DNA from: Sphagnum magellanicum | Lineage: Eukaryota > Streptophyta > Sphagnopsida > Sphagnales > Sphagnaceae | NCBI GenBank assembly: GCA_021904315.1 | Contig: CM038910.1 | Span: 22,516,256 to 22,580,255, forward strand | Length of the DNA: 64,000 nt | Reading direction: 5' to 3' | Shown: positions 5,028 through 28,695 of the stretch, piece after piece | How positions within the stretch are numbered: the stretch's first letter is position 1 | How the letters are laid out: each line of letters begins with the position of its first letter | Program-made: the position numbers and the translations under genes | The notes under the pieces: model-generated | The model's input: only the letters and a program-made list of their open reading frames with translations | Told to the model about the DNA's origin: nothing | Databases searched by the model: none

Positions 5028-5544
5028 CTCTTCCGCCCTCGACGATACAGTTACTGAGAACAACAACCAACAATCCACAGCTCTGTTGCAGCTCAAATTT
5101 TGTGGGATTACGAGGGAATTACATCTACAACGAGGTGATTAGTGGACATGTCGTCGCAATGTCGGTCGATCCCAACGAGCTTCAAGACTTGGTACATGCT
5201 TTCTCTTTACTCTCGTTTGCGGCTGCAAAATGCAATGGCTTCCCAGGCATGATTATCGATGGCGACGATTCGATGGAAGGAGTTCACGAAAAACCCAGTT
5301 CTCACGAGGAAGATACACACATAGAAAAAATGTGGTGAGAATGGGTGGGTGGTTTTTCGGCCACAGCTGCTGTAGCAAAATCATGTACTGGCAATCACTC
5401 GGTGTTTTGACATTTGTTACTTACATCTCTTCATAGTCTGTCGTTGTTGTTGTTGCATTATGGAGTTGTTGTCAAGTTTCCGTCAGGTACTCACCTAAGA
5501 AAATCCCAATAACTTTCCCATGCCATCTTTCGCACGCTATTTCC

Positions 5545-5770
5545 TTCAACACAACCCCCATCACCATCATCATCTCCATCATCTCCATCTCGTGTCCCAG
5601 CATCATCCCCCATCCATCCCTTCATGGCCAATCCTTTCAACTCATCATGACCAACCCTTTCATCTCATCATGTGCAATTCTCCATCCCATCATGGCCAAC
5701 CCTTCATCTCATCATGTGCAACTCTTCATCACATCATCACCAACCCTTCATCCCATCATGTCCCATCCTT
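5545..5770. repeat. CATCAT/TCATCTCATCATG minisatellite
   Basis: Degenerate tandem units are built from CATCAT and CAACCCTTCATC motifs, 0.5 to 0.7 kb upstream of the LAX start. The copy 2 array (about 48980-49200) differs by small unit gains and losses. Confidence 0.75.
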
Positions 5771-6589
5771 AAATATATTCCCAACAGAATTTTCGGCCCC
5801 TTTTTCTAATCAACAATTTGGCCCATCTCTTCTTGCATGCTACTACTTCAACACAACCCCAACAACTCACATCCTGTCCTCCATCTCATTTCCAACCATT
5901 GTTTAGCTTCATTTTCAACCCTTTAGAGTTAAGGTTGCTTCCAACAAAATTTTCAAGCTCCTTTTTGTCAACATCTGGCCCATCTTTTGCACACCTCCCA
6001 CCCTCCATCTAATGTTTTCCAACCTCTTCATATTAGGGTCCATCACTCCCATCAAAATTTTCAGGCCCTTATTGAGAACAACAACAACAAGGGTCAAGTT
6101 GTCAGTTTGGGGGCCCTCAATCCTACTCAAAAAGCTTCACCCTTCTGCTCTGCCTGACGCTTTGGCATTAACAAATGTGTTGCAGGATTGCAAATCATTT
6201 GTTGGGAAGATGTACAGATGGGGTGCTACAAATTTGGTTGGTTCCGACTACCACCAGCATTCAACAACTGAATTATTATCAGAATTGCTCAAGAGCGTCA
6301 CATTGAGTGATGGGAAGTGACTGAAGTGACTGGGTTCATTTCTTGGTCAAAAGTGGCTATATACTTTTTTTTTGGTTGTGTCAGCTTTTAAAATAATTGC
6401 ATAAAATTCATTAAAAAAATCCAACGAAAATTAAGGGTAAAAATCGAACGGATATGCCAAAATATAACTCATTTACTTTGTTGATGTCAAGGAAAAGAAG
6501 TAATGAATTTGAAAAATAAAAGCCACTTATTTTGTCGATGGTGAGAAGAAGAATGTTACATTTGGGTTGGAGGAATTTGTCTATCTAAA

Positions 6590-6787
6590 GGTGTGTTCAC
6601 AGTTGGGTATTAGGGACTCTAGTGTTGAGTTCCTTGACACACCATACCAATCATTTAAGACTTAAACTTATTGTGAAGATTTTATGTTAAACTAACATTG
6701 ACTTAACATTAAACTATCGCCCATCTAACATTGGGTGCCACCCAGATTTTCATGTAACATTGATTTAACATCAAGTGTGAATGCACC
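6590..6787. mobile_element. MITE, about 198 bp
   Basis: The ends are inverted repeats: GGTGTGTTCACAGTTG at the left and CAAGTGTGAATGCACC at the right. The interior (AACATTGGGTGCCACC and flanking) is shared with the element at 28315-28508. No clear target-site duplication was seen, so the superfamily is unassigned. The same insertion is at 50070-50268. Confidence 0.7.
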
Positions 6788-7197
6788 ATGATGTTATTAT
6801 CCATAACAAAATGGTTTACCTGTAATGTTAGCAGACCAGTTACCAGTTTCTCAGGTCTTATTTGGATTTGCAAGTTTGATCCTAAGTGGGATGGGTAGTG
6901 CTCCTGGGTTCTACTTTGGTAGGTTCCTACGTGCCTAAGAGGGCAAGAATCAACCAGGAACAACTGGCGTTCCAAACTGGAACAAGCCCTTCCCAGCCCT
7001 AATTGGGCCTATCACCACCATATGAGATGCTTCTTGTACTAAAGGGCCAGTCACTTTCCATAGTATGTATAAATGCAGAGGGTCTTATTATCCTTTACGG
7101 AATGGTGAAGTCCCTGACATTATGTTGGATAATGCACCCAAGCGCCCATTTGGCCAAAGCTAGGTCACATCACAAAACCTAATTATGGACATGAGAG

Positions 7198-7507
7198 TGT
7201 TATGCCCATACATGGCCTCATCCATGATGGCCAAGTACGGGCATGCCCATGTGCGCTTTTAAGGTTAATGTACGATCTTAGGTGACTGTACATTATTAGG
7301 TACTTAGGGTTTCAGTTGGTTGGCAGCATTATAAAAGGTCAAGCCTTTCCTTTCTCTCTTTAGTTTTTCTAGAATTCCTTTGTTAGGACAGTTTCCTCCA
7401 TAATCAGATAGGATTTCTAGATGTTCACGACGGCCATTGCATGGCCATCGTCTATATACATTACATTTTTTATTTTTTTTGCAATTCAATTCTTTCTTTC
7501 ATTTAAT
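7198..7507 (+). repeat. 5' LTR of the outer Gypsy element (start possibly truncated)
   Basis: These 310 bases match 25607-25916. They start with TGTTATGCCC exactly where similarity to copy 2 ends. A TATA-like TATAAAA lies at 7330-7336, followed by a pyrimidine-rich stretch. No recognisable tRNA primer-binding site follows. The 3' copy is preceded by about 57 bases (25549-25606) that have no equivalent here. Confidence 0.75.
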
Positions 7508-8475
7508 TCTAGAAAAACTCCACTTTTTGTTGCTTCATGTTCAAAGCGACATATTTATTTTGCCTGTGAGTTCTTGAGTTATTGTTGCTACTACTAGTGT
7601 TACTACTGCTGGTGTTGCTACTACCGGAGGGTGCTAATGTTCCTACTGCCACCGAAGGGAGCTAACATTGTTGCAGGAAGGAGCTTGTGTTGTCACATTT
7701 CTGACAACCAACAGAGCCGGGATCCTAGAGCAGGTTTGAAAGCCCTCTTGTCCTTCTCTCTTTCTCCCTATTTTTTTTCTCTTGAAGCTGTCAAGTAAAA
7801 ATTTGAAATAAAATAAAATAAAATAAAAAATTATTTCTCCATGTTGTAACACAACGTTGGCCAGGGCTGCAATGTGTGCTGACCATCGCCATAGCAGCGC
7901 ATTGCCGGCCATTGTTATAGTGTCGCGTTGCCAGGAGTTGCAGTGCAGTGTTGCCGCCTGCCATCACAGCAACGGCGGTTAACTTATGCCCGTTTGACTT
8001 CCATCGAACTTTTGTTCGACGTCCGTCAAATTTCCATCAGACTTTCGTCTGATGTCCTACGCCCTAATGTCTTGCACATGTTGTCCTGTGCCTTGTCGTC
8101 TTGCATCATGATGTCATGCGCCTTGACGTCCTGCATCCTATTGTTTTGTCGTCCTGCTTTTTCATCCGACATCTGTTTGACTTCTATCCAACCTTCGTCC
8201 AACCTTCATTGGACGTTCGTTTGACCTCCGCGTGATGTTTGTGTGTCACGGGTCATTCCCAACAACGCATTGTATTTTTCAAATTATATGTTATGTTAAA
8301 ATTTTGTAGCTAGTGTTATACATTATCACAAAATTTTGGGGCATGGGACAACACCATGTCCTCGTATGGTGAAAGCACTACCGCTTAACCAAAGCCCATG
8401 TATTAGCTACGAAGTAACACACAATCCTTTGAGCCGATTTCTTTAAGTTCACGATCTTCACGACGGTACCATCAA
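7508..8475. other. Leader region of the outer Gypsy element, including inverted repeat X-left
   Basis: This is non-coding DNA between LTR and gag. About 8000-8330 matches, in reverse orientation, 17709-17997 plus 24181-24202. The unit is rich in degenerate GACTTCCATC/GACGTCCGTC motifs and ends towards TGTATTTTTCAAATTATA. The left part holds TGTTACTAC-type low-complexity sequence. Confidence 0.6.
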
Positions 8476-10262
8476 GTGTCTACATCACCATTGTTATCCA
8501 GTACAACTCCTACTAAGAATTTAGGTTTAGGTTACACTACATCAATGGTACATCAAAGTCCATTTGGAGGGGCTCATCAATGGGGTACGCATGTTACTGC
8601 ACCTACTTTCACACCATCACCATATATTCCGTTGCAAGTTGTGACCTCAACACCCATATACACCATGGAGGTCAGTAGTTCCTATGGGAGAATTGAGAAG
8701 TTCAGTGAAAGGCCAAGCATTATTTCTTTGAGGGAGTTCAAGGCAACTTTCTCAACTGTGGTTTATGAATTATAGCTCAAGTATGGCACTAATTACACCG
8801 AGGCGTTTACATTTAAACAATTGGCCCGTTATGTGCATTATGAGGCATTAGATGTCTACGAGCAACATTTGGCAAGGATTTTGGGTGTCACCCAAATTCC
8901 CAATCCAGCTTACACCATAGCCATCGCCATCGCCTCTCAAGTTGCATTGCAAGCTATAATTACACATCATGGGACTGTGCCCAATAATCCAGACTTGATA
9001 CCTACCTCAATAAATCTTTCTCTTTAACAACTCATTGCTGTTGTTGCAAACATTCTTCCCACCACTGATGCGCCAGCTTTTGCTAATCCAATGGGGGATT
9101 TCTTTTGAATTCTTGAGCTAGAATTTCTAGTCAAAAGTTTTGAAAAAATTATGCAGCTTGCCACCTTTTCTCGACAAAAAGATGAAACCCTCAAGATGCT
9201 CTATATAGGAGGCTTCTCAAACTCAAAGAGGATACCCAGAGCATCACAAACCTGGAAGTTGCCCACTGATATCTTAGTTCGTTGGAAGGTACTCCAACAC
9301 TCCATGCGCAGGTTTTGCAATGGGTTTTTGTAGAAGTTGGAGACTCGTACATTTTGCTGGATGTGTACAACATTTCCGAAAAGCTAGAACTAGCTCATGC
9401 ACACTATGAAGCTAGTATTATGAGGCCTCCATCATGTTCAAGGCCTCAACCTACACCAGCTGCACCAATTAAATCATCACATTCTTCTTCAAGGACTAAA
9501 GCGGTGCACTCAGCTACACCCATCCTACCTTCTTGCAACTATTGTGGCAATCCTACCCACAGAGCTAATGAGGTCAACATTCCTTCCAAGGATCTCTTTT
9601 GTGATTATTGTGGGAAAGAGGGACATCAGGAATTTGTCTATTTTGCCAAGTTCCCGAAACGAAAGTAACTCTGATTATAATGGCAAAATTTGCCAACATC
9701 TTCCACTGTGCCTCAACCAAAAGCCAAGGCACCTCAACCTTCCACTCAGGCTTTGCCCACCAAGGGTAATTCCAACAAGAATGCTAAGAAGAAAGAGCAT
9801 AATGCTGACAAGAGGGAGGTGTTTCAAGCCCATGCAATTCAAGTTCAAACTCTACAAAATGAACTCGAATCATTAAATGCCGAACTTGCCAATGTAAAAG
9901 GCAAGTCCTCCCAACCAGCTAGTCATGCCCAACCTGTACAAGGTTCAGGATCACGAGAGGGACCGCCTAGGTCGTTTTATGGCCTCCCACACGATGCCAT
10001 GGTTGGGGAGTATGTTTTTTCCACTCCACATAATTCTAGTCTCACACCAGAATTTGTTACTTCTTTTTGCCCTTCCTATGTCGAGGCACAAGAAGTTAGT
10101 GTGGCACCCAGAGTTCCTGCCACTAGGCAGGTAATTCAAACTGATGGACTCGCATCTGGTTCAAGTCCTATTATTAGGGCTAAAGGAGCTCGAGTAGTCA
10201 TGCCACAATCTTTTCGTCCTCTCAACACAAAAGAAGAACGCACCTTGTTGGCAAGGGGGGAG
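8476..10262 (+). pseudogene. gag of the outer Gypsy element (broken)
   Basis: This is a capsid/nucleocapsid remnant. It reads in frame through 8476-9330 with in-frame stops near 8773, 9025 and 9106, then shifts frame at about 9280-9330. Two CCHC-type zinc knuckles follow the capsid region: CNYCGNPTH, whose fourth ligand is missing, and CDYCGKEGH, whose last Cys is now Tyr. Downstream is a Lys-rich, coiled-coil-like segment (VQTLQNELESLNAEL) and a Ser/Pro-rich linker. A CACTA element interrupts the reading frame at 10263; the frame resumes at 13316. Confidence 0.8.
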
Positions 10263-10592
10263 CACTAGTAAAAATCAGCCAAAATGTAACCACTCCATTT
10301 ATGACTACATGCGACTTGTAGTCGTTTGCGACTGGATTTGGGAACATTTGCAACTACAAAACCAAATTTCAACTATTTTAGTCATTCTCACAACTATGAT
10401 GCAACTATTAAAATTTTCATCCTATTGATTGGATCAATTTTACATTCATTTTCATCCATTAATAGGTTGATATCTCCCATTAGTCGAAGTAGTCATCAAA
10501 TTAGTTGCATCCTAAAGGTATTCTGCAATGACATACGGGTGTATTTTAATGTATGTACTAAAATTATATATATGCATACGTATGTATAATGT

Positions 10593-11000
10593 TCATATAA
10601 TGAATCTCAAAATTAATATTTGAACTTTGGATTTTTAATTCAAATCTGAAAATTAATATTTCAATTATGAAAACTACTATTTTAGTTTTTTAAAACAATA
10701 TTAGAATTTGAAACTTGATATTTGAATTTGAAAATTGTTATTTCAATTGTTTAAAAGATTATTTGAATTTCAAATTTTTGATTTGAATATGATATTTTCA
10801 TATAATGAATCTCAAAATTAATATTTGAACTTTGGATTTTTAATTCAAATCTGAAAATTGATATTTCAATTATGAAAACTACTATTTTAGTTTTTTTTTT
10901 AAATATTAGAATTTGAAACTTGATATTTGAATCTGAAAATTGTTATTTCAATTGTTTAAAAGATTATTTGAATTTCAAATTTTTTATTTGAATATGATAT
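10593..11000. repeat. Two-unit AT-rich direct repeat, about 206-bp period
   Basis: The segment beginning CATATAATGAATCTC recurs about 206 bases later with few changes. It lies inside CACTA element 1. Confidence 0.75.
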
Positions 11001-12490
11001 TTTCAATTTAAATTCAAAAAGGCTTCTTTGATCTAAAAATTGATATTTCAATTCTAAATTCATGTTTTCGAATCCAAAAATTAGTATTTCAATTCAGAAG
11101 GTTATTAATTGATTATAAAACTGGACATTTTAATTTTGAATATTTTTATATGAATATGGAAATTTATATTTCAATTTCGAAAAATTTTCATTTAACTTTT
11201 CAATAATCATTTGATTTGAACCTAAAATTTGAATTCCAAATTATTATTTGGGATTTTCAAAATTAATACTTCTAGTCTGAAAATTATTAATTAAGTCTAA
11301 AAATGGACATTTCAATTTGAATATTGTTATTTGAATCTGAAAATTTACATTTCAATTCTGGAAACTGTTATTTAAATTCAAAAAACTTATTTGATTTAGA
11401 AATTGATATTTGAATTCTAAATTATTATTTTCGAATCTAGAAATTAGTATTTCAACTCAAAAACTAAATTAGAATGATAGGAAAAATAATTATATAATTA
11501 TTAAAATAATTACTAAAAGTTTAATATAATACTATATTATCATTAAATTCTTTTCAAATGACATAATAATATGTAACAAAAAATAGCTAACCTAGGCTAG
11601 CTACAAATTACATTATTATTATTATTATTAGTAATAAATTATGAAGTATTACTATATTATAATAATTACCAGAAAATATTAATATATAGTTTTAAGTTTT
11701 TATATTTCAATTTTATAATTAATATTTATTCATTATTCAGTATTCAATTATTATGATCAATTACTATATATAGTTTTTATTTTCAATTTTAATATTATAT
11801 AATAATTACTGTAGTAGTTAGAATGGAAATCTAATAAATTAATATACAAATGTAGAAATTATTTTCGAAGGAAAATGTTTCTTGTTAAAAATAAAAAATA
11901 TTTATTGTAATAATTCATAAATATCTATAATGAATAAAGTAATAATATGAATAATAAAAATGAGAAAAATAATGGGAATAATTGTAATAAAATAGTTAGC
12001 GTAGGCTAGGTTTTAATTATATTATTAGATTAAAAAAACTACTACTTAATTTATATAATCATTAATTATTAATTAATGAATATTTCAGTTATTATGTTAA
12101 TTTATTTGGTTATGAAATAATAAATGATTAATTATTAAAAATTAGCTAATTATTTGAATATTAGCCAATTATTAGTTAATGAAATTGGTTGATTCATTAT
12201 AGTTCATATATAATGAAAATTAAATATTATTATTGTTTATATAACTAATAAATTAAGTAATATTTAGTAATAAATAATTAAATAATTAATGCAGTAATCA
12301 TAATATATTGATGATTATTATTATAAATAATTAGTTAGTTGGATAATTTATAAAGTGAATTAGTTAATATCTAATTTAGTTGTTAAATAATTAATTAACT
12401 AGCTTATTAATTTATTTTTCTATTTTTTATTCATTAAATAATTAGCTAATTAGTTAGCTAATTAGTTGTCACTTACCACTTAATTATATA

Positions 12491-12636
12491 CTTTTCAAGA
12501 TGAGGATGAAAGTCAAAACATATGGGATAAACTTTTTAGTTGCAAGTCATTTGCGACTAAAAATGATTAGTTGCAAATGACTTACAACTAAAAAGTTTAT
12601 CCCATATGTTTTGGCTTTCATTTTCATTTTGAAAAG
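12491..12636. repeat. Long palindrome, 69-bp arms and 8-base loop
   Basis: Arms 12491-12559 and 12568-12636 are reverse complements at 63 of 69 positions. The inner parts carry TTTAGTTGCAAGTC-type motifs that resemble the element's own subterminal repeats. RNA from either strand would fold into a near-perfect hairpin. Confidence 0.9.
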
Positions 12637-12769
12637 TATATAAACAAGGTGTTTTGTCTTTATATTTTCATATTTAAAAATATGGACAAATGGGATGAGC
12701 CAATGAAAAAGACTTAACCCAAAATAAAATAAAAATATTCATGTATTTACACTTAACTACATACTTCCT

Positions 12770-12905
12770 TAACTTACCTACCTACTTTTCTACTTACATA
12801 CCTACCTAAGTAGGTATTTGGCCTAGGTAGGTAAATAGGTCCTATCTAGATAGGTGTTTAGCTTATATGGGTAGGTAGGTATATAGGTAGGTAGGTATTT
12901 AGTTC
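12770..12905. repeat. TACC/GGTA microsatellite-like array
   Basis: Runs of TACC in the first half and GGTA in the second half form an imperfect inverted arrangement within CACTA element 1. Confidence 0.7.
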
Positions 12906-13315
12906 AACCTACATCCCTAAATATTGATTTAAATTGAATTTGGACAAATTCAATTAATATTCCACGTGTCACAATTTAAACCATCTAAACATAAAAATTA
13001 AACATCTTGGATTATTTCAAAAGAATAAAAATTAATTAATTATTAAAAGTTGGGACACATGGCAACACATAAATTGTTCCCATTGTTCACCAAAAAAGTC
13101 GCATCCTAGTTGTAAACGACAATACGTATATGACAAGTCAAAGGATGAAGGCGTATTTTGTTGATTTTTTCCTTCATCTAAAATTCGTTGTCGTTTGCGA
13201 CTAGTGTCCTATGCGACTTGTCCAATGCGACTATTAAGATTTTAGTTGCAAATGTCGCTTGCAACTAAAACTTAGTCGCATGGACCAGTTGTAAAATGGC
13301 CATTTTCTACTAGTG

Positions 13316-14203
13316 GAAAAGATTACCACACCACAAGTTGTTAGGGCATCAAATTTCCCGTGTCCGAGGAGTACATGTACATAAGGAAAACACACAATTT
13401 TCCATTGATCAGCTTATGGAATGCCAAGTTCAAATGCATGAAGTGGCGCAAAAGCTTATGAGTACACCATTGTTTAGTTTTCAAGATTTGAAACTAAGCA
13501 CTAGGGACATAATTACAGTATTAGAGGATACCCTAAACACTACATCATGTCTTCTACAAATCCCTGATCCACATGCTACAAAGGTCCCATCCAACACCTT
13601 GAAGAGACATTCGATTGGCTCACATGTTGCAAATGGCATTCGTAATCTATTCACTAGTTCTAGCATGGCTAAATTAGTGGGCTTTCCTACCTCTGATTCT
13701 ACATTCACATATCAGAAAGGAGTTGAGAACACCTCACTTGTGGATTTGTTATTCAACAAAGGTGTTGTGGATAACCATTCTCTCCACAAAGTCTCTCACT
13801 CATTTCCGAAGGTGGTGCCTAATGATAAAACTTCCATCGCCACTGGAGTTGCCATTGTCAACAATATTGGGTCAGTAATCCAAATGGGAGGACATACACC
13901 CAGAGTGGTACTTTTTAATACAAGTGCCCAACTAGTGATTCTTGGAATTTAATTCGCCAAGAAGATGGCCATGCTTGATTCTAAACTACGGAAAGCTATG
14001 TGACAAATTCGCACCACTAGTGGGAACGTAAAGGAAGTACTTGGGGGAAGTTCAGATTTTATTACACTTAACTTCAATGAAGGTATAGATCAGGAGCTTT
14101 GCTTACAGGTCAGATGTTTTGTCACCAATGCCACCAGTTATGATGTGCTCATTGGGCAAGAGGCCATGTTTCCACCTAGTTACACAATTAACAACTAGTT
14201 CGA
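13316..14203 (+). pseudogene. gag-pro remnant with retropepsin of the outer Gypsy element
   Basis: This continues the frame interrupted by the CACTA element. About 200 residues of linker lead to a retroviral-type aspartic protease. The active-site motif reads LFNTSAQLVILG where a Gypsy protease normally has D-T/S-G-A, so the catalytic Asp is now Asn and the Gly is Ser, both explicable as transitions. The second half of the fold is seen in SYDVLIGQEAMFP. In-frame stops occur near 13950, 14000 and 14197. The frame then changes by one into the downstream pol region. Confidence 0.75.
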
Positions 14204-14364
14204 ACATGCGTACTACCGAAGTGGATTGGGAGACTGATGGCAACCACCTGGGATACATACCCTTTGATTTGCATGGGAACCATAGTCCTACGGCTCACCA
14301 TTGTATGCTCAAGGAAGCACACACCATTTCTTACATCCAACAAGCTAACCACGAGTGGATATAG

Positions 14365-15762
14365 GGAGATGAGGAAGAGATAGCTTACGTTCAAGCTACT
14401 GAAAGTTTGAAGGTGGTTCCTACTGACATTCAACATGGACCAGAGGTTTTATAGAGGTTCAAAGTAGCCCACAAACCCTTGGTTAAAGCTTTGTCTAGTT
14501 TTGAGAGCATGGAGAGCCATGGTGAACCGATTAAGCCATTAGTTTGTCAGCTAATCACCTAGACACCACCTAAGGAAAGGATTACATTACTAGAGCTCTT
14601 TGGTGGTATTGGTATAGGTCTCGAAGCCCTACTACAGTCAGGGATGGTGGTTCAGAGGTATTTTTACATAAACATTGACCCTATTGCAAGGCAAGTGGCG
14701 GCATTAAGAATGAGGGAGTTCATAACAAGATTTCCACAACAGTTTGCAACCACTACATGGAAAGCTAGTTTCACATTTTTGCCCTCTGACATACAACTAA
14801 TTTAGAATAAGCATATGGAATTACTTAGCCCCATTGACCTCATCATTTCAGGTTGGGAGTGTCAAGGATTTTCAGTGGCTAGATTTGGAGAAGGCTTGAG
14901 TGACACAAAATGTGGTCTTTTCACGGACATGATACGATTGATCACCTGGGCTCAATCCATTTTTCCTACATTTGGTTATGTAATTGAAAACACCATTTCT
15001 CAGCTTGACCAGAGGGAGAAAGTCTAAGAGCACTACACATTAGTTAAACATTACCTTGGAGAATCGCTCTTACTTGATGTGGCACAATGCGGTTCCTATG
15101 CACATCGGTTATGCAACTAGTGGACCAACCTAGCGCCACTTTTAGTTCTATAACTAGCTTTGAAATACACTATCAGAGACCTTAACCTACAAGTTTCTCA
15201 CATATTGGATGATTAAAGTTCTTGCCAACCAGTTGCAAGGCAAGAGAAACCTCATTGGTTTCTTGCGAACATAATAGGAAAACCAAGAGGTGTTTGGCCC
15301 ACCTTTGTTTCCTTCCCAGGAGCACACGCCTTTTAGGGAGATGGGCCAAGCCTGGTGTATCATCATGCTTCAGCCACTTGGGATGAACCAAGCCTAGAAG
15401 AAAGAGAAAAGGCTATGGGGTTCCAAACTGGCACTATTAGTCACACTATTGTGATTAAATTGGAGCGTAACGCTCTATTGGGGAAAGGCATGGACGTGAA
15501 CTCCCTTACATGGTTGTTGGTAACTTGTGTACTCTTTCAAATGTACACAACATTAACACTGATTCAATCAGCTTGCAGTTCTGGCAATGCGACCACATGG
15601 CACCCCGACCAAGTACACTTGCCTATTTTCAACACTCTACATTTTACTCTTAGTGTTGGGGGGGAGGAGGCACCATGTAATTTGACTCAAGTTGTGTCTA
15701 ATACACCTGGAGGTACATCAGCTTCTGGAAAAACAATTACAACTTTCTATGAATCTGCATAG
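14365..15762 (+). pseudogene. C5 cytosine DNA methyltransferase domain inside Gypsy pol (broken)
   Basis: This region would transfer a methyl group from S-adenosylmethionine to cytosine in DNA. In one frame (codons beginning at 14581) it shows motif I, LLELFGGIGIGLEALL (14587-14634, SAM binding). Motif IV follows as DLIISGWECQGFS, with the candidate catalytic Cys codon at 14860-14862. Motif VI appears as YVIENT (ENT at 14986-14994), a motif VIII-like AHRL followed by WTNL lies near 15103-15132, and IX/X-like EEREKAMGF and RNALLG end near 15531. Spacing and the tail resemble the DNMT3/DRM-type catalytic fold more than CMT or MET1. Stops lie at 14560, 14803, 15025, 15118, 15151, 15214 and 15334, mostly explicable as C-to-T changes. 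The domain lies between protease and reverse transcriptase in the same frame as the latter, so it was part of pol. Motif IV has Glu where the usual Pro of PC would be. Confidence 0.85.
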
Positions 15763-16890
15763 TTGGATAGTGGAGAACCCAATACACCAAGTTCTTCAAA
15801 CACACTTTCCAACTCCATTCCATGTGTTTCTAACTACCCTTTCGTTATGGGGAACCAATTCACCAAGAAGGAGAGAGACCATGTCACAAACTTGTTAATT
15901 AAGTATGAGAATGTGTTTGCATTCTCAATGAAAGACTTAGGTAGGTGTAAGACCATGCAATTCTCTATAGACCTTACAGATGAAACACTCGTTTATTGAA
16001 GGAGGCATAGGTTGAGCAAGCATGAATGGGAATTGGTAGATGAAAGATGCAAAGAGCTCCATGAGGCTGGTCTCATTCAATCATCAAGTTCTGATTTCAC
16101 AGCCACTATAGTAATGCCAACAAAGAAAGATTTAGCTAGATTGTGGACTGAGAAAAGGATGTGTGGGGAATATAGGCCTTTGAACCTAGTTACACCTCAA
16201 GATAGGTACCCCATGCCCATCCTTGAAAAATTGTTTGATAGCATTGGATATTCAAACATTTTCACAATTGTGGATCTGAGGCAAGGTTTCAACCAGATTG
16301 TGCTCGTTACGAAGGATCACAAGAAAACGACATTCCATGGAAGCAGCAAGTTATGGGAATGGCTTGTGATGCCCTTTGGATTGGAAAATGCACTTGTCTT
16401 CTTTTAGCGAGTCGTGGACCAGGTTCTTGAAGGGGTAGATTTCCTGACATGCTATATAGATGACGTTTTAGTGCATAATAAGGGACTCCTACAACATTTG
16501 GCTCATCTTGAGGAGTTATTCAAGAGGCTCCATGAAGTCAATATGAAGATCCATCCTAAAAAGTGTGAGTTTGTTGTCACCTTAGTAATTTACTTTGGAC
16601 ATAGACTTTTACCAAATGGTATTATGGCTCATTGGGCCAAAGTAGTAGCCATTTTGGAGATGCCCAATCCTACTGATGTTCGCACATTGAGGAGCTTCAT
16701 TGGACTATGTAATTACTACAGAATTTATGTCCAAGACTTTAGTACTATTACTCATCCTCTCTATGCATTGTTAAAGAAAGATGTTGCTTGGACATGGAGT
16801 GATGAGGCTCAAGAAGCTTTCAACACACTCAAGGAAAAGCTTTCAGAGTTCCCCATTCTGAGAAGACTTGATTTCAACAAGGTCTTCATT
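15763..16890 (+). pseudogene. Reverse transcriptase of the outer Gypsy element (broken)
   Basis: This is the RNA-dependent DNA polymerase domain, in the same frame as the methyltransferase. It shows MQFSIDLTDET, HRLSKHEWELVDERC, EYRPLNLVTPQDRYPMP, FTIVDLRQGFNQI, LVMPFGLENA and the catalytic CYIDDVLVH (YIDD at 16453-16464). It also has the connection region LRSFIGLCNYYR. Stops lie near 15997 and 16405. The key catalytic Asp residues are still present. Confidence 0.9.
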
Positions 16891-17359
16891 CTACACACTA
16901 ACTAAAGTGCTCTTGGTATTGGAACTATTCTTGGCCAACTTGATGAGGAAGGCAAGGAATATGTTATCGCCTATGCATCTCGAAGCAACAACAAGGCTTA
17001 AAGCAACTACTCTTCATACGAGGGGGAGTGCCCTGTTGTTGTATGGGTTGTCATACATTTCATGCCCTATCTTTATGGCACCAATTTCACTTTGTATACC
17101 GACCACCAGCCTATCAAGTGGCTGATGACCAACAATAAGCTTACTAGTAAGTTAGCTCGTTGGGTGCTTATACTTCAAGAATATGAGTTCAAGGTTATTC
17201 ATTGACCTAGTATTACACATTAGAACGTGGATACCATGTCGCGCAGACCCCTCACTACCTCTGAAGATTTTGCAAAAGCCAAGCAAGATTTTGACCAAAT
17301 TCTAGCAATACATGTATCTGAGGCATCTAGTTTCCTTGCACTATTGCAATGTAACCTGG
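16891..17359 (+). pseudogene. RNase H of the outer Gypsy element (broken)
   Basis: This follows reverse transcriptase in the same frame. It is recognised from SALGIGTILGQLDEEGKEYVIAYASR, NYSSYEGEC, TLYTDHQPIKWLM and the terminal NVDTMSRRP, a variant of NADALSRR. The first catalytic Asp is replaced (HTN instead of HTD) and stops occur near 16903, 16998, 17203 and 17221. Confidence 0.85.
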
Positions 17360-17711
17360 TTAAGCATCCTGTTATGGATATATGCGAGGACTTGGACACT
17401 CTAAGGTTTCTTCAACATGGGGAATACCTTCCCCAAATTACATCAAGTCAGCGGGATCGCATACAACAGTGGTTTAAACGCTATTCATGGAGGGACAATC
17501 ACCTCGTCCGATGCTTACCACAAGGCAACAAAGTGGTTCCTCCACCACATGAATGCTTATTTAGAAGGTACACTCGCAGTTTGGACACTTTGGAGTTAAA
17601 CGTATTTATAACCTTCTCGTTCCTCATTACCATTGGAGAGGTATGTATGCTCAAGTTTGAGACGTCATTATTAGGTGTGAACAATGTGATAAAATGAGAA
17701 TTTCTTTTTGT
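17360..17711 (+). pseudogene. Integrase N-terminal part of the outer Gypsy element (broken)
   Basis: Downstream of RNase H the frame runs through DLDTLRFLQHGEYLPQ and RDRIQQWFKRYSW into VVPPPHE, the start of the HHCC zinc-binding domain. From about 17524 the sequence matches 24203-24399, but this copy has a small deletion and lost frame. It stops abruptly at the inverted repeat X-right. Confidence 0.75.
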
Positions 17712-17997
17712 GATAGTACACAACACTAGTTACAAAATTCTAACACAACGTATAATTTGAAAAATACAATGCGTTGTTAGGAATGACCCATGACACATAG
17801 ATGTCACATGGACATCCAACGAAGGTTAGACAAAAGTCGGATGAAACTCAAACAAATGTCGGATGAAAAGGCAGGACGGCAAAACGGTAAAACACAAGAT
17901 AACAAGATGATGGGGCGTAGGATGTCAAGACGAAAGTTGGACGGAAGTCCAACGGACATTGGATGGACATCGAACAGAAGTGCGACGAAAGTCCGAT
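17709..17997. repeat. Inverted repeat X-right (split by the nested Gypsy element)
   Basis: The reverse complement matches 8000-8330. The unit is rich in GGACGGAAGTCC/GATGGACATC motifs. Its last bases resume at 24181-24202, after the nested Gypsy element, which used CCGAT at 17993-17997 as target. Confidence 0.75.
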
Positions 17998-18264
17998 TAT
18001 CATGGCCTAGGATATTTTGGGATACTTTTGGCAATATCATGGCCTAAGATATTTTGGGATACTTTTGGCAATATCATGGCCTAAGATATTTTGGGATACT
18101 TTTTGCAATATCATGGCCTAGGATATTTTGGGACTAGTATGGTTCAGGGTTATAAAAGGAGATAGTCTAGGGAACAACCCGTCAGCAGATCAACACCAGT
18201 TGATGGATCAATAAAGCTTGTCTTGTCTTGTAATTCTCCACTTGTTTGTAGTCGGTCCATAACA
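17998..18264 (+). repeat. 5' LTR of the nested Gypsy element
   Basis: It runs from TATCATGG (TG in the 3' copy) to CATAACA. It contains four direct repeats of about 33 bp built on ATCATGGCCTA...TTTTGGGATAC. TTATAAAAGGAG is the likely TATA region and CAATAAAG a likely polyadenylation signal. No convincing tRNA-type primer-binding site follows. Confidence 0.95.
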
Positions 18265-18408
18265 GTTTGATCTGCTCCTTCTTATTGTTTGTTTGTTTTG
18301 TTGTTTCAGTAAGTAGCTAGAGGTATTTTGGGGTGAAACTTGGAAAGGTTATAGAAGACTATAGGACGCTTCTACTCTCAAAGTTTCAAAAGAAAAGGAT
18401 ATGTTTTA

Positions 18409-18716
18409 TGAGAGTTAAAAGCTTTTGAAAACTCTGTGTCAAATCTGGTTTTTTAGTCAGATCTCCTTTGTTTAAGCTTTTTTGGGTCTGTAACTTTGTG
18501 ATTTTATAGATCATATAGGAATATATGTGTGAGAGAAATTTCATGTCATTTGGACTTGTATTATGAGAGTTAAGAGCTTTTGAAAACTCTATGTCAAATC
18601 TGGTTTTTTGGTCATATCTCCTTTGTTTAAGCTTTTTTGGGTTTATAACTTTGTGATCTTATAGATCATATAGGAATATATGTGTGAGAGAAATTTCATG
18701 TCATTTGGACGTGTAT
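18409..18716. repeat. 154-bp tandem duplication in the nested element's leader
   Basis: Units 18409-18562 and 18563-18716 both begin ATGAGAGTTAA and end in the same GACTTGTAT/GACGTGTAT region. They lie in the untranslated leader before gag. Confidence 0.85.
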
Positions 18717-19202
18717 TGTGAGAGATCCAAGCATCTGAAGTTTCAGTCTCAGTTTTGAAGTCAGTTTCTTTTGAAAGTGATATCTTTTTGTGGTCATCAT
18801 CAATAGGGCTGAAATTTTGACAAAATATAGAAGACATATATTCTATGTGTCTCCCAAAATCTCAAGGATTTTGGAGTTTTTGAGAGCGAGTTGTAAGTCA
18901 TTTTGTGTTCAGGTCCTAGTTTGAGGTGGCTTCAAGGAAGTAGCAAGATTTTTCACTTTCCGAAGTTCAATGAGCTGAGATTTTGTGAGAAGGTAGTAGA
19001 CATAGTTGCTCATGTTTTACCAAAATTTTAGAACGATCCAAGGTCATATGTGAGCAGTGTAGCTTTGCAAAATTGCTATGACAGAAGTTTGTTTTGAAAA
19101 GACATCAAAGCCAAAGTTTTGAAGTGGAGCAAATACAACTTGGGAGATCTTGAAGGAAGGAGTTTGAAGATTGGGAAGCGCAAAAGTGTGAGAACTACCA
19201 CC

Positions 19203-20177
19203 ATGGACAACTCAGAATCAAACATCGATCTCACTCAAATCCTCGCCGCCCTTCAACACCTTCAACAAGAAAATGTCGTGCTTAGAGACTTGGTGACCCA
19301 CCTACAGAATCAGCCACCACCTCCTGCCCCAGTACTTCCTGCTCTTGCAATGGTCACCCCAGAGCCCAAGATCAGTTTGCCAGAAAATTTTGATGGAACA
19401 CGCCTCAAATTTCGAGGCTTTGTTAACCAGGTACGCCTGATCATACAACTACACCCCCATTGTTATTTTGATGACACCACTTGTGTAGGATTCACTGGAA
19501 CCCTACTCACTGGGACAGCTGCAGCATGGTTTGCTCCCATCCTGGAAACATCATCCCCTCTCCTACAAGATTTCAACGCCTTTATGGCCGAATTTGAAGC
19601 AGTGTTTGGGGACAGTGACAAGGCCAGGACTTCAGCCAACAAGCTGCGTCGCCTCCAGCAAGGGACACATTCGGCCGTCATCTACGCCTCAGAATTCAGG
19701 CAGCTTGCCTACGACGTCAATTGGGGAGAAGTTGCCTTGATTGATCAATTTCGCTGTGGGTTTCGTGATGATGTTCAAGATCTTTTGTTGACACTCGCAG
19801 ACCCTTCTTCCTTTAGTGAAGCTATCACCTAGGTAATTCGGTGCGATAATCGTCTATTTGAACGTCGCCAGGAAAAGAAAGTCACTTCCAACGCCCAGCT
19901 TTGGAACAGTCGGCCTATTACGCTCCCCTCAGTTCCTCAAATAACACTAGTTGCCCGACCTGCCTCTTTTGGACCTGCTCCGATGCAGATCGACACAGCT
20001 AAGTTTAAATCTTTGACAGAAGCCGAGAAACTTCGCCGAAGGACAAACAATCTATGTCTTTACTGTGGCAACCCAGGGCATATAGCTCGTCAGTGCCCTC
20101 AAAAGCTTGTCAAACTTCAAGTACAAGCTGTGGAAACTCCCCAAGAGTTGGAAAACAAAAACATCCAGTCACAGTAG
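19203..20177 (+). pseudogene. gag of the nested Gypsy element (one internal stop)
   Basis: The likely start is the ATG at 19203, which opens MDNSESNIDLTQ. An N-terminal coiled-coil-like stretch is followed by PKISLPENFDGTRLKFRGF and the capsid domain (AAAWFAPIL...FEAVFGD). A TAG at 19830-19832 interrupts the frame where CAG (Gln) would fit. Reading continues to a canonical zinc knuckle, CLYCGNPGHIARQCP, near 20055-20100. The frame ends at a TAG at 20175-20177, and the protease lies in another frame. Confidence 0.9.
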
Positions 20178-20990
20178 GAGCCGTGCGACTGGATATCACC
20201 CAACATCACCTTTGCAAAGGCTCATGTTCCACTGTTGGTCCCAGTCCCAGTTTCACTCAGTATGTGGACATCATTCGTATTCCAGAAGACATACCACAAG
20301 TGTCAGCTTTGGTGGACTCCGGCGCCACCTCTTCTTTCATCGACCAAACATTTGTCGTCCAACACAACATCCCTGTGATCAAGAAATCAACCCTTGTTCC
20401 GGTAGAGGTTATTGATGGGAGAACCATTGCTTTTGGTGCAATCACACACGAGAAAACCCCTTTAGAACTCTGTATCGGCAAGCACACGGAGAAAATTGTT
20501 CTCAACATCATCTCCACCCCTCACCATCCCATCATCCTTAGTCCGCCTTGGCTAGAAGCAAACAACCCTATCATTGATTGGCGGTCTAGAACCCTCACCT
20601 TTAGCGCACAACGATGCACCTCTCAAGAACCTCACGCTCAGAAAAACACTTTGTCCAGTCTTGCCAAAAACCCTGTGGTCAAGAACCCAAAGAGGGTCGA
20701 AACCAATTCCAGTTTTCTCAAGTCTGTTATGTCAAGTCCTGCAGTCAAGAACCCCCAGTTGGTCAGAACTAAACCTTGTCCTATCAAGAACCTTGTCAAG
20801 AATCCTGCCTAGAAAACCAACCCTGTCCAGATCTTCGTTGATAGAGTTGTCCCTTTCTATTGGGCTGCTAAGAATCTTCAAGTCTTCGCCATCCATGTCA
20901 ACCCAGCCAACAACACAAACCCCCCATCAGAACCAACACCTGTCAACCTTCCCGAGAAGTACAAGGACTTTGTTGATGTTTTTGAAAAAA
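20178..20990 (+). pseudogene. Protease region of the nested Gypsy element
   Basis: This is a retropepsin. The active-site motif ALVDSGATSSFID has its Asp at 20315-20317 intact, followed by PVEVIDGR and the flap/hydrophobic region [16 protein letters not shown] Lys/Pro/Asn-rich linker follows. A TAG near 20810 interrupts the linker. At about 20990 one extra A in an A-tract moves the reading frame before reverse transcriptase. Confidence 0.85.
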
Positions 20991-21943
20991 ATTAATGCTG
21001 ATCAGCTCCCCGCCCATAGTCCATATGACTGCCCAATTGATCTAGAAGAAGGACACTCACCACCCTTTGGTCCTATCTATGGCCTATCGGAACCAGAACT
21101 CCAAGCCCTGCGTGATTACCTTATTGAAAATCTTGCCAAGGGGTTCATTCAGCATTCCAAGTCTCCAGCCGGTGCCCCAATTTTGTTTGTCAAGAAGAAG
21201 GATGGATCCCTTCGACTCTGTGTGGATTATCGTGGACTCAACAAGATAACCAAAAAGAATCGATATCCCTTGCCCTTGATTTCAGGTCTCCTGGATCGAC
21301 TACGTACCGAGAAGATCTTCACCAAGCTTGACCTCCGTGGAGCCTACAACTTATTCAGGATTCGTCCCGGTGATGAATGGAAGATAACTTTTCGCACACG
21401 CTACGGCCACTTCGAATACACGATCATGCCCTTCGGCCTCACTAATGCACCCGCAGTCTTTCAACATCTGATGAATGATATCTTCTAGGATTACATGGAC
21501 AAATTTGTCGTGGTCTATTTGGATGACATTTTAATCTTTTCCAAGGACCAGGAAATCCATAATAAACATGTACGATTGGTGCTTGTGACGCTCCGAGAGC
21601 ATGGTTTATACGCCAAGTTGGAAAAATGTGAATTCGACAAATCTTCAGTGGCGTTCCTCGGCTACGTGATCTCTTTAGATGGCATTTTCATGGACAAGTC
21701 AAAGGTCGAAACCATCCAGTGTTGGGCTACTCCATCCTCGGTCAAGGACGTTCAATGCTTCTTGGGGTTTGCCAACTTCTATCGTCGGTTTATCAAAGGC
21801 TACTCCAAGATCGCAACACTGTTAATAACCCTGACTTGCAAAGACAAGCCCTTTTCGTGGAACCCAACGGCCCAGGCTGCTTTTGATACTCTCAAGATGG
21901 CATTCACCTTTGCACCCATCTTTATACATCTCGATCCTACCAA
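20990..21943 (+). pseudogene. Reverse transcriptase of the nested Gypsy element
   Basis: Recognised by [85 protein letters not shown] (YLDD at 21516-21527) and CFLGFANFYRRFI. A TAG at 21486-21488 interrupts the domain. The frame differs from its neighbours because of one inserted base at about 20990 and one lost base at about 21943; the second restores the original frame. Confidence 0.93.
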
Positions 21944-22447
21944 GCCATCATTGTGGAAACGGACGCTTCAGATTTTGCCTTGGGAGCTATTCTATCTCAA
22001 TTTGGAATAGATGGGTTGCTGCATCTAGTTGCTTTCTATTCATGGAAGTTAACCAGTGCCGAAATCAACTACCAGGTCTACGATAAGGAATTCCTGGCAA
22101 TCATCGCGGCATTCGAGTAGTGGAGACCGGATCTTGCTGGAGCTCAACATCGAGTCCAAGTTTTGATAGATCACAAGAATCTCCTTTATTTCACAACTAC
22201 TCGGACCTTAAATTGTCACCAGGCACGCTGGTCTATCTTCCTAGCTGATTTTGACTTTGAGATTCAGTATCAACCCGGCACCCAGCAAGGGAAAGCTGAC
22301 GCGCTATCTCGTCGTTCAGAATATGAACTTCGAGCGGGGGATGAGGCCTACAGTCAGTAGAACCAGACTTTACTTAACCCAGAGCAATTTCGAGTTGCAG
22401 CAACAATCAGCACCCTCCCAGACTCATACCTTGTCAGGGACATCAAG
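21944..22447 (+). pseudogene. RNase H of the nested Gypsy element
   Basis: The domain starts [17 protein letters not shown] and continues through [13 protein letters not shown], the DHKNLLYF motif and the terminal GKADALSRR. Stops lie near 22118 and 22358. The catalytic Asp in ETDAS is retained. Confidence 0.9.
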
Positions 22448-23908
22448 ATGGCAACTGAGGAAAACACCTGGGCTACCAACATCAAGAAGGAACTCCAGGA
22501 ACGACCAAGGAACCCAAATCGTGATGACCTAGATCAGTTTGAGCAGCAAGATGGACTTCTCTTTCGAAATAACCTGATTTATGTACCCGAAGGACCTATA
22601 CGCCTAAAAATCCTGAGAGAATGTCACGACAACACCCTGGCGAGTCACTTTGGAATAGCACGGACTCACGAACTAGTGTCAAGGACTTACTAGTGGCCCA
22701 AAATGAACAAGCTGCTACGGGAGTATGTCAAGTCTTGTGATACATGTGTTCGATCCAAGGCTCCCAGACATCACCCGTTTGGACTTCTACAGCCTCTGTC
22801 GATTCCTAGCCGACCTTGGGGATCTATTGCAATGGACTTCATCACAAACCTCCCTATTGTCATAACCAAGAATTCAATACTGGTTGTGGTCGATCGACTC
22901 ACCAAAATGGCCCATTTCACCCCTTGTTCCAAATCAATCACGGCAGAAGAGACAGCTCAGTTAATTCTGGACGGGAACGTCTGACTGCATGGACTCCCCG
23001 AGGAAATTGTGTCCGACAGAGGTCCTCAGTTTACATCCAAGTTCTGGCATCGTCTATTCGAGCTTCTTGGAGTTAACATTTGGCTATTTTCAGCTTTCCA
23101 CCCCGAGACAGATGGACAAACCGAACGAACAAACCAGACACTCGAGCAATACCTTCGCTGCACTGTGAACTACCAACAGGACGACTGGCTAGACCTACTA
23201 TCTCAAGCAGAGTTTGCTTATAACAACACAACACATGCATCGACCGGGATCAGTCCATTCTTTGCCAATTACGATTTTCATCCCAGGTTTAACCTTGAAA
23301 TTCCTGGAGACTCCGTAAACCCCTCGGCTAAAGAAAGGGCCACGAGGCTTGGACAGGTTCAACAGAACCTTATGGCAGAAATCAAGCTAACATAAGAGTG
23401 GCAAAAGAAGCAAGCAGACCGTCGACGCAAGGACCATCCAAACTTCAAGGTTGGAGACAAGGTCTGGCTTCTCAGAAAGAACATTGCTACCACTCGCTCA
23501 TGTGCCAAGTTGGATTATAAGCGCCTCGGACCTTTCAAAATCGCCAAATTGGTTAGTCAAGTGGCTTGCCAGTTGGAGCTTCCACCCCAGTTCAAAATCC
23601 ACAATGTTTTCCATGTCTCCTTGCTTGAGCCCTATCATGAAAACCCGATCCTAGAACGTCATCAAGAACCCCCAGCTCCAGTCGAAATTGAAGGCCAAGA
23701 AAAGTTTGAAGTTCAGGAGGTCTTGGACTCCAAGAAGATTCGTGGAAAGCTCCTGTACCTTGTCTTTTGGCGAGGTTATCCTCCTTCTGAAGCTACTTGG
23801 GAACCTGTTGGAAACCTAGTTCATGCCCAAGACTTAGTTAATCGGTTTCACCAACGGTATCCTAACAAACCGGCTCCATCTGGAAGATGTCGCTTGAGGA
23901 GAGGATAA
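22448..23908 (+). pseudogene. Integrase plus chromodomain of the nested Gypsy element
   Basis: The integrase joins cDNA to the genome. Zinc-binding residues are in HDNTLASHFG and CDTCVRSKA, and the catalytic D, D and E lie in AMDFITNLP, VSDRGPQFTS and QTLEQYLR. The GPF region LGPFKIAKLVSQ is followed by NVFHVSLLEPY. A C-terminal chromodomain (about 23690-23870; YLVFWRGYPPSEATWEP, DLVNRFHQ) would target methylated histone tails. Stops lie near 22691 (TAG), 22982 (TGA) and 23393 (TAA), the latter two fitting CGA and CAA changed by C-to-T. Confidence 0.92.
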
Positions 23909-24175
23909 TGTCATGGCCTAGGATATTTTGGGATACTTTGGGCAATGTCATGTCCTAGGATATTTTGGGATATTTTTGGCAATATCATGGCCTAAGATAT
24001 TTTGGGATACTTTTGGCACTATCATGGCCTAGGATATTTTGGGACTAGTATGGTTCAAGGTTATAAAAGGAGATAGTCTGGGGAACAACCTGTCAGCAGA
24101 TCAACACCAGTTGATGGATCAATAAAGCTTGTCTTGTCTTGTAATTCTCCACTTGTTTGTAATCGGTCCATAACA
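23909..24175 (+). repeat. 3' LTR of the nested Gypsy element
   Basis: It runs from TGTCATGG to CATAACA, preceded by a purine tract GAGGAGAGGATAA. It is followed by the target duplication CCGAT at 24176-24180 and the resumption of repeat X. Confidence 0.95.
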
Positions 24176-24202
24176 CCGATGGACGTCAGATGGAAGTCCA
24201 AC

Positions 24203-25294
24203 AACAGAGTGGTTCCACCACCACATGAACGACCTGGTCTTATTCAAAAGGTACATTCAAAGCTTGAACACTTTGGAGTTAAGCGTATTTATAACCTTCT
24301 CACTCCTCATTACCATTGGAGAGGTATGTATGTTCAAGTCCTAGACATCATTGCTAGGTGTGAACAATGTGATAGAGTGAGAACCTCTTTCTCCTTTCAA
24401 CAGCTCACGCTTTCTCCATTCCCTATTCAGGGCATGTTTTGTCATTGGTCATGTGATTTAGCTGGAGAATTACCACAAACCTCCAGGGGTAATGTTTACA
24501 TCATGATTATGATTGAGGATTTTTCAAAGTGGGTTGAGCTTGTTGCGCTACCGGACAAGTCATCACACAACATTAGCCAAGCTTTTTTACAACAGGTTCT
24601 AAGTAGGTTTAGGGCTGGCCTGAGTGCCTTACTAATCAAGGATCAGAATTCAGGGGAGAATTCCAAGACCTACTTGACCATGCTTTCATTGACCATCATC
24701 AAACTTCAAAAGATCATCCCCAAGCTGATGGCCTTGCAGAGAGGATGGTTCAAACGTGCAAAAAGGAACTTTGGAATATTTGCCTCACTAAAAACAAAGA
24801 GGATTGAGACTTAGCCTTCCCTTACATCGCTATAGGTTACAAGATGTCCAAACACGCCTCTTTGTCTCATTTCTCTCCTTACTTTTTATTTTTTGGGAAA
24901 CGTCCCATTCTACTTTCTTCCATTGTTGTTCAAATGGAACAGGTTGTGGACTTGGACTCCCAGCCACTTGGGTTAGGGTCATTGCAAAAAGGGCTGCTCT
25001 ATACAAGAGGGTTATGCCCATGGCCATGGAGAACCTATCCATTGCACAACATCAAAACACCTTACGGTATGCACACACACGAGGTGATAGTTACAAACTT
25101 AAAGTGAAACAATTTGATGTTGGTGATTTTGTGTATCTCTAGCGGTAACCCAATGATACTCTAAACACTTCTTCTGGTCGCACTATCTTAAGGATTAAGG
25201 CATCAAGCCTTTAAGTGTGTTGGAGTTGTAAAGAGCTGATGGACGCACAATTCAAGATCATTCCAAAAATTCTGCGCCTTGCCACCTGCCAAAC
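24203..25294 (+). pseudogene. Integrase of the outer Gypsy element, second segment (broken)
   Basis: It begins immediately after repeat X and re-reads the HHCC region already present at 17524-17711: VVPPPHERPGLIQ, HSKLEHFGVKRIY, HYHWRGMY and ARCEQCDR. The core follows with CDLAGELPQTSRGNVYIMIMIE (first catalytic Asp), then is frameshifted around the second Asp (about 24630). Later fragments in other frames include YRLQDVQ-like and PMAMENLSIAQH regions and KQFDVGDFVYL near 25142. The two copies of the overlapping segment differ substantially. Confidence 0.85.
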
Positions 25295-25498
25295 TTGGAT
25301 CTTACCATCATCACGTTGACTTGGATTCCTCCACTTGATTATCCATGTCAAGTATGTCAAAAGACAAATGATGCTGATCAGATGCTGTTTTGTGACAACT
25401 GTAATGGTGGATACCATCTCTTCTGCCTCAAACCGAAGCTCACACAAGTTCCCACCAACAATTGGTACTGTTCATCATGTTCTCCTACAGCACCTTGA
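25295..25498 (+). pseudogene. PHD finger at the C-terminus of the outer Gypsy polyprotein
   Basis: This is a C4HC3 zinc finger of the type that reads histone H3 tails. The open frame contains all eight ligands in order: CQVC, then CDNC, then H-L-F-C, and finally CSSC. Its span is 25346-25480, ending with Trp-Tyr before the last Cys pair, as in typical PHD fingers. It takes the position where chromoviruses carry a chromodomain. The frame ends at a TGA at 25496-25498, followed within 45 bases by the purine tract and the LTR. The finger itself has no stop, although the upstream frame is damaged. Confidence 0.85.
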
Positions 25499-25548
25499 TT
25501 CCTATTCAGATCATGCCACGCTTTTCCTGGCTCAAATCTGGGGGGAGA

Positions 25549-25606
25549 TACTACGGATTTACACCTTTATGACACCGTACGTCACAACATTACACGTCAC
25601 GACAAC
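25549..25606. repeat. 55-bp repeat between purine tract and 3' LTR
   Basis: TACTACGGATTTACACC through CACGACA recurs at 26040-26095 as TACTATGGATTTACACC through CATGACA. Starting right after the purine tract, it could be the true start of the LTR. Confidence 0.7.
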
Positions 25607-25916
25607 TATCATGCCTGTACATGGCCTCATACATGATGGCCAGTTATGGGCATGCCCATGTGCACTTTTAAGGTTAATGTACGGTCTTAGGCGACTATAC
25701 GTTGTTAGGTACTTAGGGTTTCAATTGGTTGACGACAATATAAAAGGCCAAGCCCTTCCTTTCTCTCTTTAGTTTTTCTAGAATTCCTTTGTCAATAAAG
25801 TTTCCTCCATAATCAGATAGGATTTCTAGATGCTCATAGCGGCCATTGCACGCCCACCGTCTACATACATTACATCTTCTTTTTTCTTTGCCATTCAATT
25901 CTTTCTTTCATTCAAT
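25607..25916 (+). repeat. 3' LTR of the outer Gypsy element
   Basis: It matches 7198-7507 over 310 bases, with a TATA-like sequence AATATAAAAGGCC near 25738 and CAATAAAG near 25793. It begins TATCATGCC where the 5' copy begins TGTTATGCC. Confidence 0.8.
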
Positions 25917-28508: not shown

Positions 28509-28695
28509 ATTAGATGATATTGACATCTACTTAGAAAGAACCTGGCAAAATTCTTATACCCATGAGAGAGGACGGAATCAGATCAAGGATGATGAGAAGG
28601 TCATCGGGATTCAGTAGGTTGCCCTCAGCAACATCTTCTAACTTCTATCCAACGTTGAGAAGATCTAGTTAGGTAGAAGAAAAACTGTTTTTTAC

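Follow-up and report, generated by a model that had tools for sequence, protein, structure and literature searches.

A stretch of 64,000 nucleotides of Sphagnum magellanicum DNA (the window) contained, at positions 14563–15540 of the forward strand, a decayed C5-cytosine methyltransferase inside a Ty3/Gypsy-type pol, between the protease and the reverse transcriptase (RT). The element that carried it was almost certainly of the Ty3/Gypsy type, with the architecture gag–protease–Dnmt3-like methyltransferase–RT/RNase H–DDE integrase–PHD finger, and the copy in the window was dead. Judged from the sequences of related proteins, this finding extends to land plants the Gypsy-Dnmt3 elements, a kind that had been reported in algae. 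The new points were the occurrence in land plants (a liverwort and three Sphagnum species), the PHD finger, and an ECQ active site.

Methyltransferase domain in the window

The translation of 14563–15540 (P0001), in which six in-frame stops were written as X, matched the Pfam family PF00145 (DNA_methylase) with an E-value of 1.3e-7 and a score of 31.8 bits (cut-off 22). Since this match exceeded the cut-off and the stop-free piece 14809–15027 was significant by itself (E = 3.4e-6, 27.2 bits), the methyltransferase domain was not a chance pattern; the pieces 14563–14805 and 15337–15762, scanned singly, gave no Pfam match. The preliminary description, which had proposed such a profile search, had placed a cytosine methyltransferase at 14569–15540, and its coordinates proved good to within a few codons. 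The motifs it had named (motif I, motif IV with its Cys, ENT, and a IX/X-like tail) were all recovered in order, the full series in 14563–15540 being ELFGGIG, WECQGFS, ENT, HRLCN, and the tail, which we take to be motifs I, IV, VI, VIII-like, and IX/X-like, respectively. The candidate catalytic Cys of WECQGFS was encoded at 14860–14862, and HRLCN of the window read HRLRN in relatives. The domain was single-copy within the window by tblastn. It lay just upstream of the RT, as had been stated, and in the same reading frame as the RT pieces 16000–16407 and 16408–16905.

The family was assigned with a methyltransferase-only profile. This profile matched DNMT3A best (E = 3.2e-16), followed by HhaI (1.3e-7), DRM (4.1e-6), and DNMT2 (0.004), and no DNMT1/MET1/CMT chain was among the profile matches listed up to E = 10. 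The predicted structure of the relative P0018, a model with a mean pLDDT of 72.3 and values below 50 at residues 198–205, 233–241, and 243–290, matched the DNMT3A/DNMT3B fold. The family motifs ran directly from I to X; the rearranged order of the DRM type was absent, and profile positions 4–134 matched the C-terminal part of DRM chains. In both sequence profile and predicted fold, the methyltransferase family thus appears closest to DNMT3. A candidate from a scan of viral contigs, L001, was rejected as a close relative: the C5 methyltransferase encoded at its positions 1093–2181 was of phage type, read FPCQ, and reached 31% identity in no more than a short alignment, and an ORF of similar length overlapped it in another frame. 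A pattern scan of genome contigs gave 38 matches, of which 0 were confirmed as relatives.

Active-site residues among relatives

The catalytic Cys was kept in 99 of the 100 relatives aligned at its column and was followed by Gln in 98 of 98, satisfying the PC(Q/N) consensus at the latter position, while the residue preceding the Cys was Glu in 94 of 100, instead of the consensus Pro; the 154 relatives were mostly close moss-type sequences, so none of the counts of relatives given here is a count of independent cases. The Glu of ENT was retained in 80 of 90 aligned relatives, and the motif I residues F and G in 59 and 60 of 61, respectively. Key residues were damaged in many copies, Arg being kept at R184 in 46 of 76 and at R182 in 57 of 76. 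In selected alignments of 22 rows and 6 rows, which included moss-type, liverwort, and Closterium records, WECQG was invariant, and the change from Pro to Glu therefore looks old. On the evidence of the alignments, Glu before the catalytic Cys could mean that methylation is weak, altered, or lost.

Backbone of the element

All parts of the element lay on the forward strand. A decayed gag region at 8665–9650 was identified from where it lies and from two CCHC knuckles in the relative P0148, a protein that matched the window by tblastn at 8665–9204 (74% identity) and 9168–10262 (65%). The window remnants of these knuckles were without the last Cys, and no gag family was among the Pfam matches listed for P0148. 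The pol stretch before the protease, 9681–10262, was delimited by tblastn of P0124 and P0148 and had no convincing Pfam match. A spacer and a decayed retropepsin region followed at 13356–14219, from matches to P0148 and P0124; the protease of the window copy was one frame off, and the matches of relatives split near 14219. The preliminary description had placed the methyltransferase after a retropepsin. A protease region did lie upstream, but it was recognised via relatives, whereas the window's own pieces of it had no Pfam match.

Downstream of the methyltransferase, a linker (15541–15890) led to decayed RT and RNase H regions at 15900–17100, which were delimited by RVT_1, RT_RNaseH_2, and the alignment of P0123. 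RVT_1 scored 27.3 bits on 16000–16407, just below the cut-off of 29.6, and 41 bits (E = 2.2e-10) on 16408–16905, above it; RT_RNaseH_2 scored 29.5 bits (E = 7.9e-7), slightly below its cut-off of 29.8. Among solved structures, the RT part of P0123 was nearest to the Ty3 RT 4ol8 (E = 1e-62), the next non-Ty3 chain being 8r0s (3.3e-46). By pairwise alignment, the start of the integrase zinc-binding region was present in two copies, at 17526–17707 and 24202–24390. The integrase itself, with an H2C2 zinc finger and an rve core, both decayed, occupied 24202–25201 and was matched by P0149, P0150, and P0065; on 24203–24685, PF17921 was found with an E-value of 3.4e-13 and rve with 3e-6 (27.9 bits, below the cut-off of 32.6). 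In P0149 and P0150 the integrase lay downstream of RNase H, which is the Ty3/Gypsy order. No tyrosine recombinase family was among the Pfam matches listed for P0148, P0149, and P0150; a DDE integrase was present instead.

A PHD finger followed the integrase at 25346–25471 (PF00628, E = 2.2e-12 on 25202–25471, residues 49–90 of the translated piece). The S. magellanicum relative P0065 also had a PHD finger past its integrase-matching part and was 83% identical to 25202–25462. The finger was seen in these two copies only; P0150 extends beyond the integrase, and no PHD finger was listed for it by Pfam. In chromoviruses a chromodomain is positioned after the integrase. Because the PHD finger occupies the same position, it may have a histone-reading role in integration.

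Domain fusions in related proteins

Relatives were collected in three protein searches, from which the best 120 of 254, 120 of 566, and 120 of 1728 matches were taken, and their union formed the 154 listed relatives; the search with the methyltransferase was the one that gave 254 homologues. The protease and methyltransferase regions of the window were both matched by 7 of the 154, two of which, P0065 and P0120, are gene models interrupted by gaps. P0033 (liverwort), P0124, and P0148 had protease and methyltransferase within a single protein, and gag-asp_proteas (PF13975) exceeded its cut-off in P0033 but fell short of it in P0124 and P0148. The methyltransferase and the following linker were matched by 54 of the 154, and four (P0094, P0123, P0149, and P0150) extended past the methyltransferase and into the RVT_1 core, the Pfam domains of both being found in three of these four. 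P0005, P0100, and P0122 stopped short of the RVT_1 core, though they passed the edge at 15900.

The longest relatives overlapped one another along the element. P0148 (1214 aa) joined a gag-like part, the protease, and the greater part of the methyltransferase; P0123, which is of Sphagnum type, joined methyltransferase, RT, and RNase H and aligned with 14644–17106 at 87% identity; and P0149 (1217 aa) joined methyltransferase, RT, RNase H, and integrase, ended inside the integrase, and was collinear with 14530–17553 in a single alignment of 1044 columns (40% identity). P0150 (1313 aa), from Closterium, had the same four domains in one protein, with an internal duplication. The span from gag to integrase was covered by no single listed relative, and from these overlapping pieces we infer that the element probably had a single reading frame from gag to integrase. 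The claim that the methyltransferase was embedded in a Ty3/Gypsy pol was borne out by the PF00145 match and by the fusions in relatives.

Identities in the methyltransferase and the RT, compared among three records, were 34% and 45% between P0123 and Closterium, 39% and 59% between P0123 and P0149, and 42% and 52% between P0149 and Closterium. The closest pair differed, being P0149 and Closterium in the methyltransferase and P0123 and P0149 in the RT. P0123 and Closterium were the most distant in both domains, which fits a joint descent of the methyltransferase and the RT.

Hosts of related sequences

Among the matches listed, the relatives with a named organism were from Sphagnum compactum (P0047), S. 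balticum (P0120), S. magellanicum (P0065), the liverwort Calypogeia fissa (P0033 and P0133), and the zygnematophyte Closterium sp. NIES-54 (P0150). The seed plants, against which the preliminary description had set the element, were thus not supported as its setting. The domain of the window was 68% identical to that of P0047, 83% to that of P0120 over 113 residues, 71–84% to pieces of P0065, and 62% to that of Calypogeia P0033. P0033 outscored the named Sphagnum records, its query coverage being 74% versus 63, 30, and 35%; by identity, the relatives pointed to a probable Sphagnum host. In a small tree, in which moss-type labels were given by similarity to the named Sphagnum records, the window copy grouped with four moss-type records (support 100/100), a nine-row set of bryophyte type had a support of 94/98, just below the mark of the program, and Closterium was placed with P0149 (80/69). 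Host groups beyond mosses, the liverwort, and Closterium may exist among the matches past the best 120.

Element ends and decay

The window also held a duplicated segment without the element: 617–7186 and 26100–35761 matched 44050–50671 and 50685–60345, respectively, with the empty site near 50677. Homology broke at about 7200 and resumed at about 26097–26100, which placed the element at about 7200–26096. The segmental duplication (617–7186 with 26100–35761 versus 44050–60345) was large and about 92–97% identical. Elsewhere in the window, overlapping self-matches of 71–87% identity at 39876–41129 and 42151–42556 suggested diverged tandem repeats.

Two pairs of direct repeats were found on the forward strand. 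Repeat A1 at the 5' element end (7202–7507, 306 bp) was 87.9% identical (269/306) to repeat A2 at 25611–25916. Repeat B1 (25549–25605, 57 bp), directly before A2, had 7 mismatches to repeat B2 (26040–26096) at the 3' element end; this pair scored 79, whereas 500 shuffles of one partner gave at most 26. An order of A, B, A, and B, with a gap between each A and the B that follows it, is that of the split direct repeats of DIRS-type elements. The window held one copy only, and DIRS-like split direct repeats are therefore probable, not proven. Alternatively, A1 and A2 could be ordinary long terminal repeats (LTRs), with 25917–26096 (180 bp, including B2) either inserted independently or the truncated end of an LTR. 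A DDE integrase normally acts on LTR ends, and the target-site duplication of this single copy was ambiguous, with GAGAG on the left versus AAAAA on the right. The A1/A2 pair was present, but the element continued past A2 to B2. However, B2 ended where the empty-site homology resumed and B1 ended just before A2, and the two pairs had diverged equally (269/306 and 50/57 identical). Repeats structured like those of a DIRS element were also described for KnitGypsy-Dnmt3, which has domains typical of Gypsy (PMC5890265, Fig. 4 legend). Ordinary LTRs are accordingly an unlikely reading of the ends, although one of some weight, and split direct repeats are preferred.

Five of the six stops in the methyltransferase lay at columns that are mostly Gln in relatives and one at a column that is mostly Trp. 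Transitions outnumbered transversions by 29 to 8 between A1 and A2 and by 7 to 0 between B1 and B2. The stops and the excess of transitions fit cytosine deamination. The observed/expected ratio of CpG was 0.31–0.35 in the element, and this depletion was no specific mark of it, since the ratio was 0.35 in the whole window and even 0.21 in 26100–35761; a nested Gypsy element had 0.56.

The element was split by an insert at 10263–13315, with ends CACTAGT... and ...ACTAGTG and a possible 3-bp duplication (GAG/GAA), which we take to be CACTA-like; it contained, at 12479–12648, an inverted repeat whose arms are 82 nt long. The nested Gypsy element occupied 17998–24175, with 265-bp repeats at 18000–18264 and 23911–24175 (95.8% identical) and a presumably chromodomain-like stretch near 23750. 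An integrase-region piece of about 185 bp flanked this nested block on both sides, within 17526–17885 and 24202–24390, and adjoined 5' leader sequence of the element (8143–8333) that was duplicated in inverted orientation, a rearrangement.

Possible function of the methyltransferase

The best overall explanation, which combines the polyprotein architecture with a working mode for the methyltransferase and the PHD finger, seems to us rather likely. In this explanation, the methyltransferase would be made within the polyprotein and packaged with the RT, and it would then methylate either the element cDNA or, during insertion, the DNA of the host, with the result that a new copy would already carry methylation on entering the genome; integration would be steered by the PHD finger, which follows the integrase and would read a histone H3 tail. 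The cDNA-methylating role taken by itself is conceivable, with somewhat less than an even chance, and is supported by analogy: the domain sits inside an RT polyprotein, and SymbioDIRS-Dnmt3 enzymes methylated CG de novo in yeast, according to the text of PMC5890265.

A non-catalytic job, such as DNA or RNA binding or aiding reverse transcription, would suit a domain that with ECQ for PCQ/PCN is no longer a methyltransferase. WECQG was invariant in the alignments of 22 and 6 rows that spanned moss-type, liverwort, and Closterium records, and the methyltransferase domain of KnitGypsy gave no signal in yeast, a result judged inconclusive by its authors (PMC5890265, as described there). However, plain binding would not need the catalytic and motif I residues, and their retention (Cys, the following Gln, the Glu of ENT, and F and G of motif I, in the counts given above) argues against such a job, which we consider improbable, about as much so as ordinary LTRs. 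Action directed mainly at host DNA or silencing, or at competing elements or viruses, and not at the element's own cDNA, agrees with a speculation in the 2019 article PMC6338049 that retrotransposon methylases are antiviral, and the PHD finger could bring the element machinery to chromatin; the location of the domain, with the protease on one side and the RT on the other, instead points to a role within the particle, and action on the host or on rivals has a low probability, lower than that of a non-catalytic job. That an unrelated methyltransferase gene was inserted once, by chance, into a Gypsy element might be supposed from a broken copy in a rearranged, nested locus. Related elements nevertheless carried the segment, both as protease–methyltransferase (7/154) and as methyltransferase–RT core (4/154) fusions among the listed relatives, with moss, liverwort, and alga included, which leaves this explanation a negligible chance.

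Beyond the explanation that we prefer, packaging with methylation of cDNA and PHD-guided integration, the element may represent an old write-and-read module, complete in itself, of streptophyte Gypsy elements, in which a derivative of Dnmt3 with ECQ throughout the family, in mosses with a PHD finger, was combined with split direct repeats and a DDE integrase, and in which ECQ may alter the chemistry or the targets. This is a speculative proposal that is probably wrong in part or whole, its chance falling between those of a non-catalytic and a host-directed role. If it were true, a DDE integrase that acts on split direct repeats would need a special end-processing route, and we know of no such route for Gypsy elements. 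The occurrence in bryophytes makes it testable why a retrotransposon would carry an enzyme of the type that usually silences it.

Comparison with known systems

In the titles and abstract openings listed from open-licence literature, a scope outside which most of the subscription literature lies, there was no report of Gypsy-Dnmt3 elements in Sphagnum, Calypogeia, or Closterium. According to a 2019 article, land plants, such as tracheophytes, have no transposons that encode methylases (PMC6338049); PMC12344493 mentions DNMT3 members of retrotransposons, from streptophytes and from dinoflagellates, as having been reported earlier; and the available text of PMC10952607 and PMC9122828 treated host methyltransferase genes, not element-borne ones.

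The methyltransferase resembled animal DNMT3A/DNMT3B in its best profile and fold matches and in its motif order. Unlike these enzymes, it was embedded in a polyprotein and had Glu, not Pro, before the catalytic Cys, and neither ADD nor PWWP, which DNMT3A/DNMT3B possess, was among the Pfam matches listed for the scanned pieces of the element in the window and of relatives. With plant chromoviruses, the element shared the Gag-Pol layout and a domain of the chromatin-reader type after the integrase; unlike in those elements, a PHD finger replaced the chromodomain and a methyltransferase was added.

A methyltransferase in a Gypsy pol has a precedent. In the charophyte Klebsormidium nitens, KnitGypsy-Dnmt3 has a Dnmt3 within the Gypsy Pol ORF (de Mendoza et al. 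2018, PMC5890265) and, by the account given there, is under purifying selection. It is like the present element in having a Dnmt3-type, non-rearranged methyltransferase in that position and in the DIRS-like repeats described for it. Compared by description, the two differ in their hosts, which here are moss, liverwort, and Closterium (no Klebsormidium record was named among the 154 listed relatives), and in that the word PHD is absent from the main text of PMC5890265 and ECQ is unmentioned in its sections 9–11. SymbioDIRS-Dnmt3 and SymbioLINE-Dnmt of dinoflagellates, which that article describes as independent of the Klebsormidium case, are likewise retrotransposons with a cytosine methyltransferase domain; they are built on DIRS backbones with a tyrosine recombinase or on LINE backbones, in contrast to the DDE integrase and Ty3-type RT of the element in Sphagnum.
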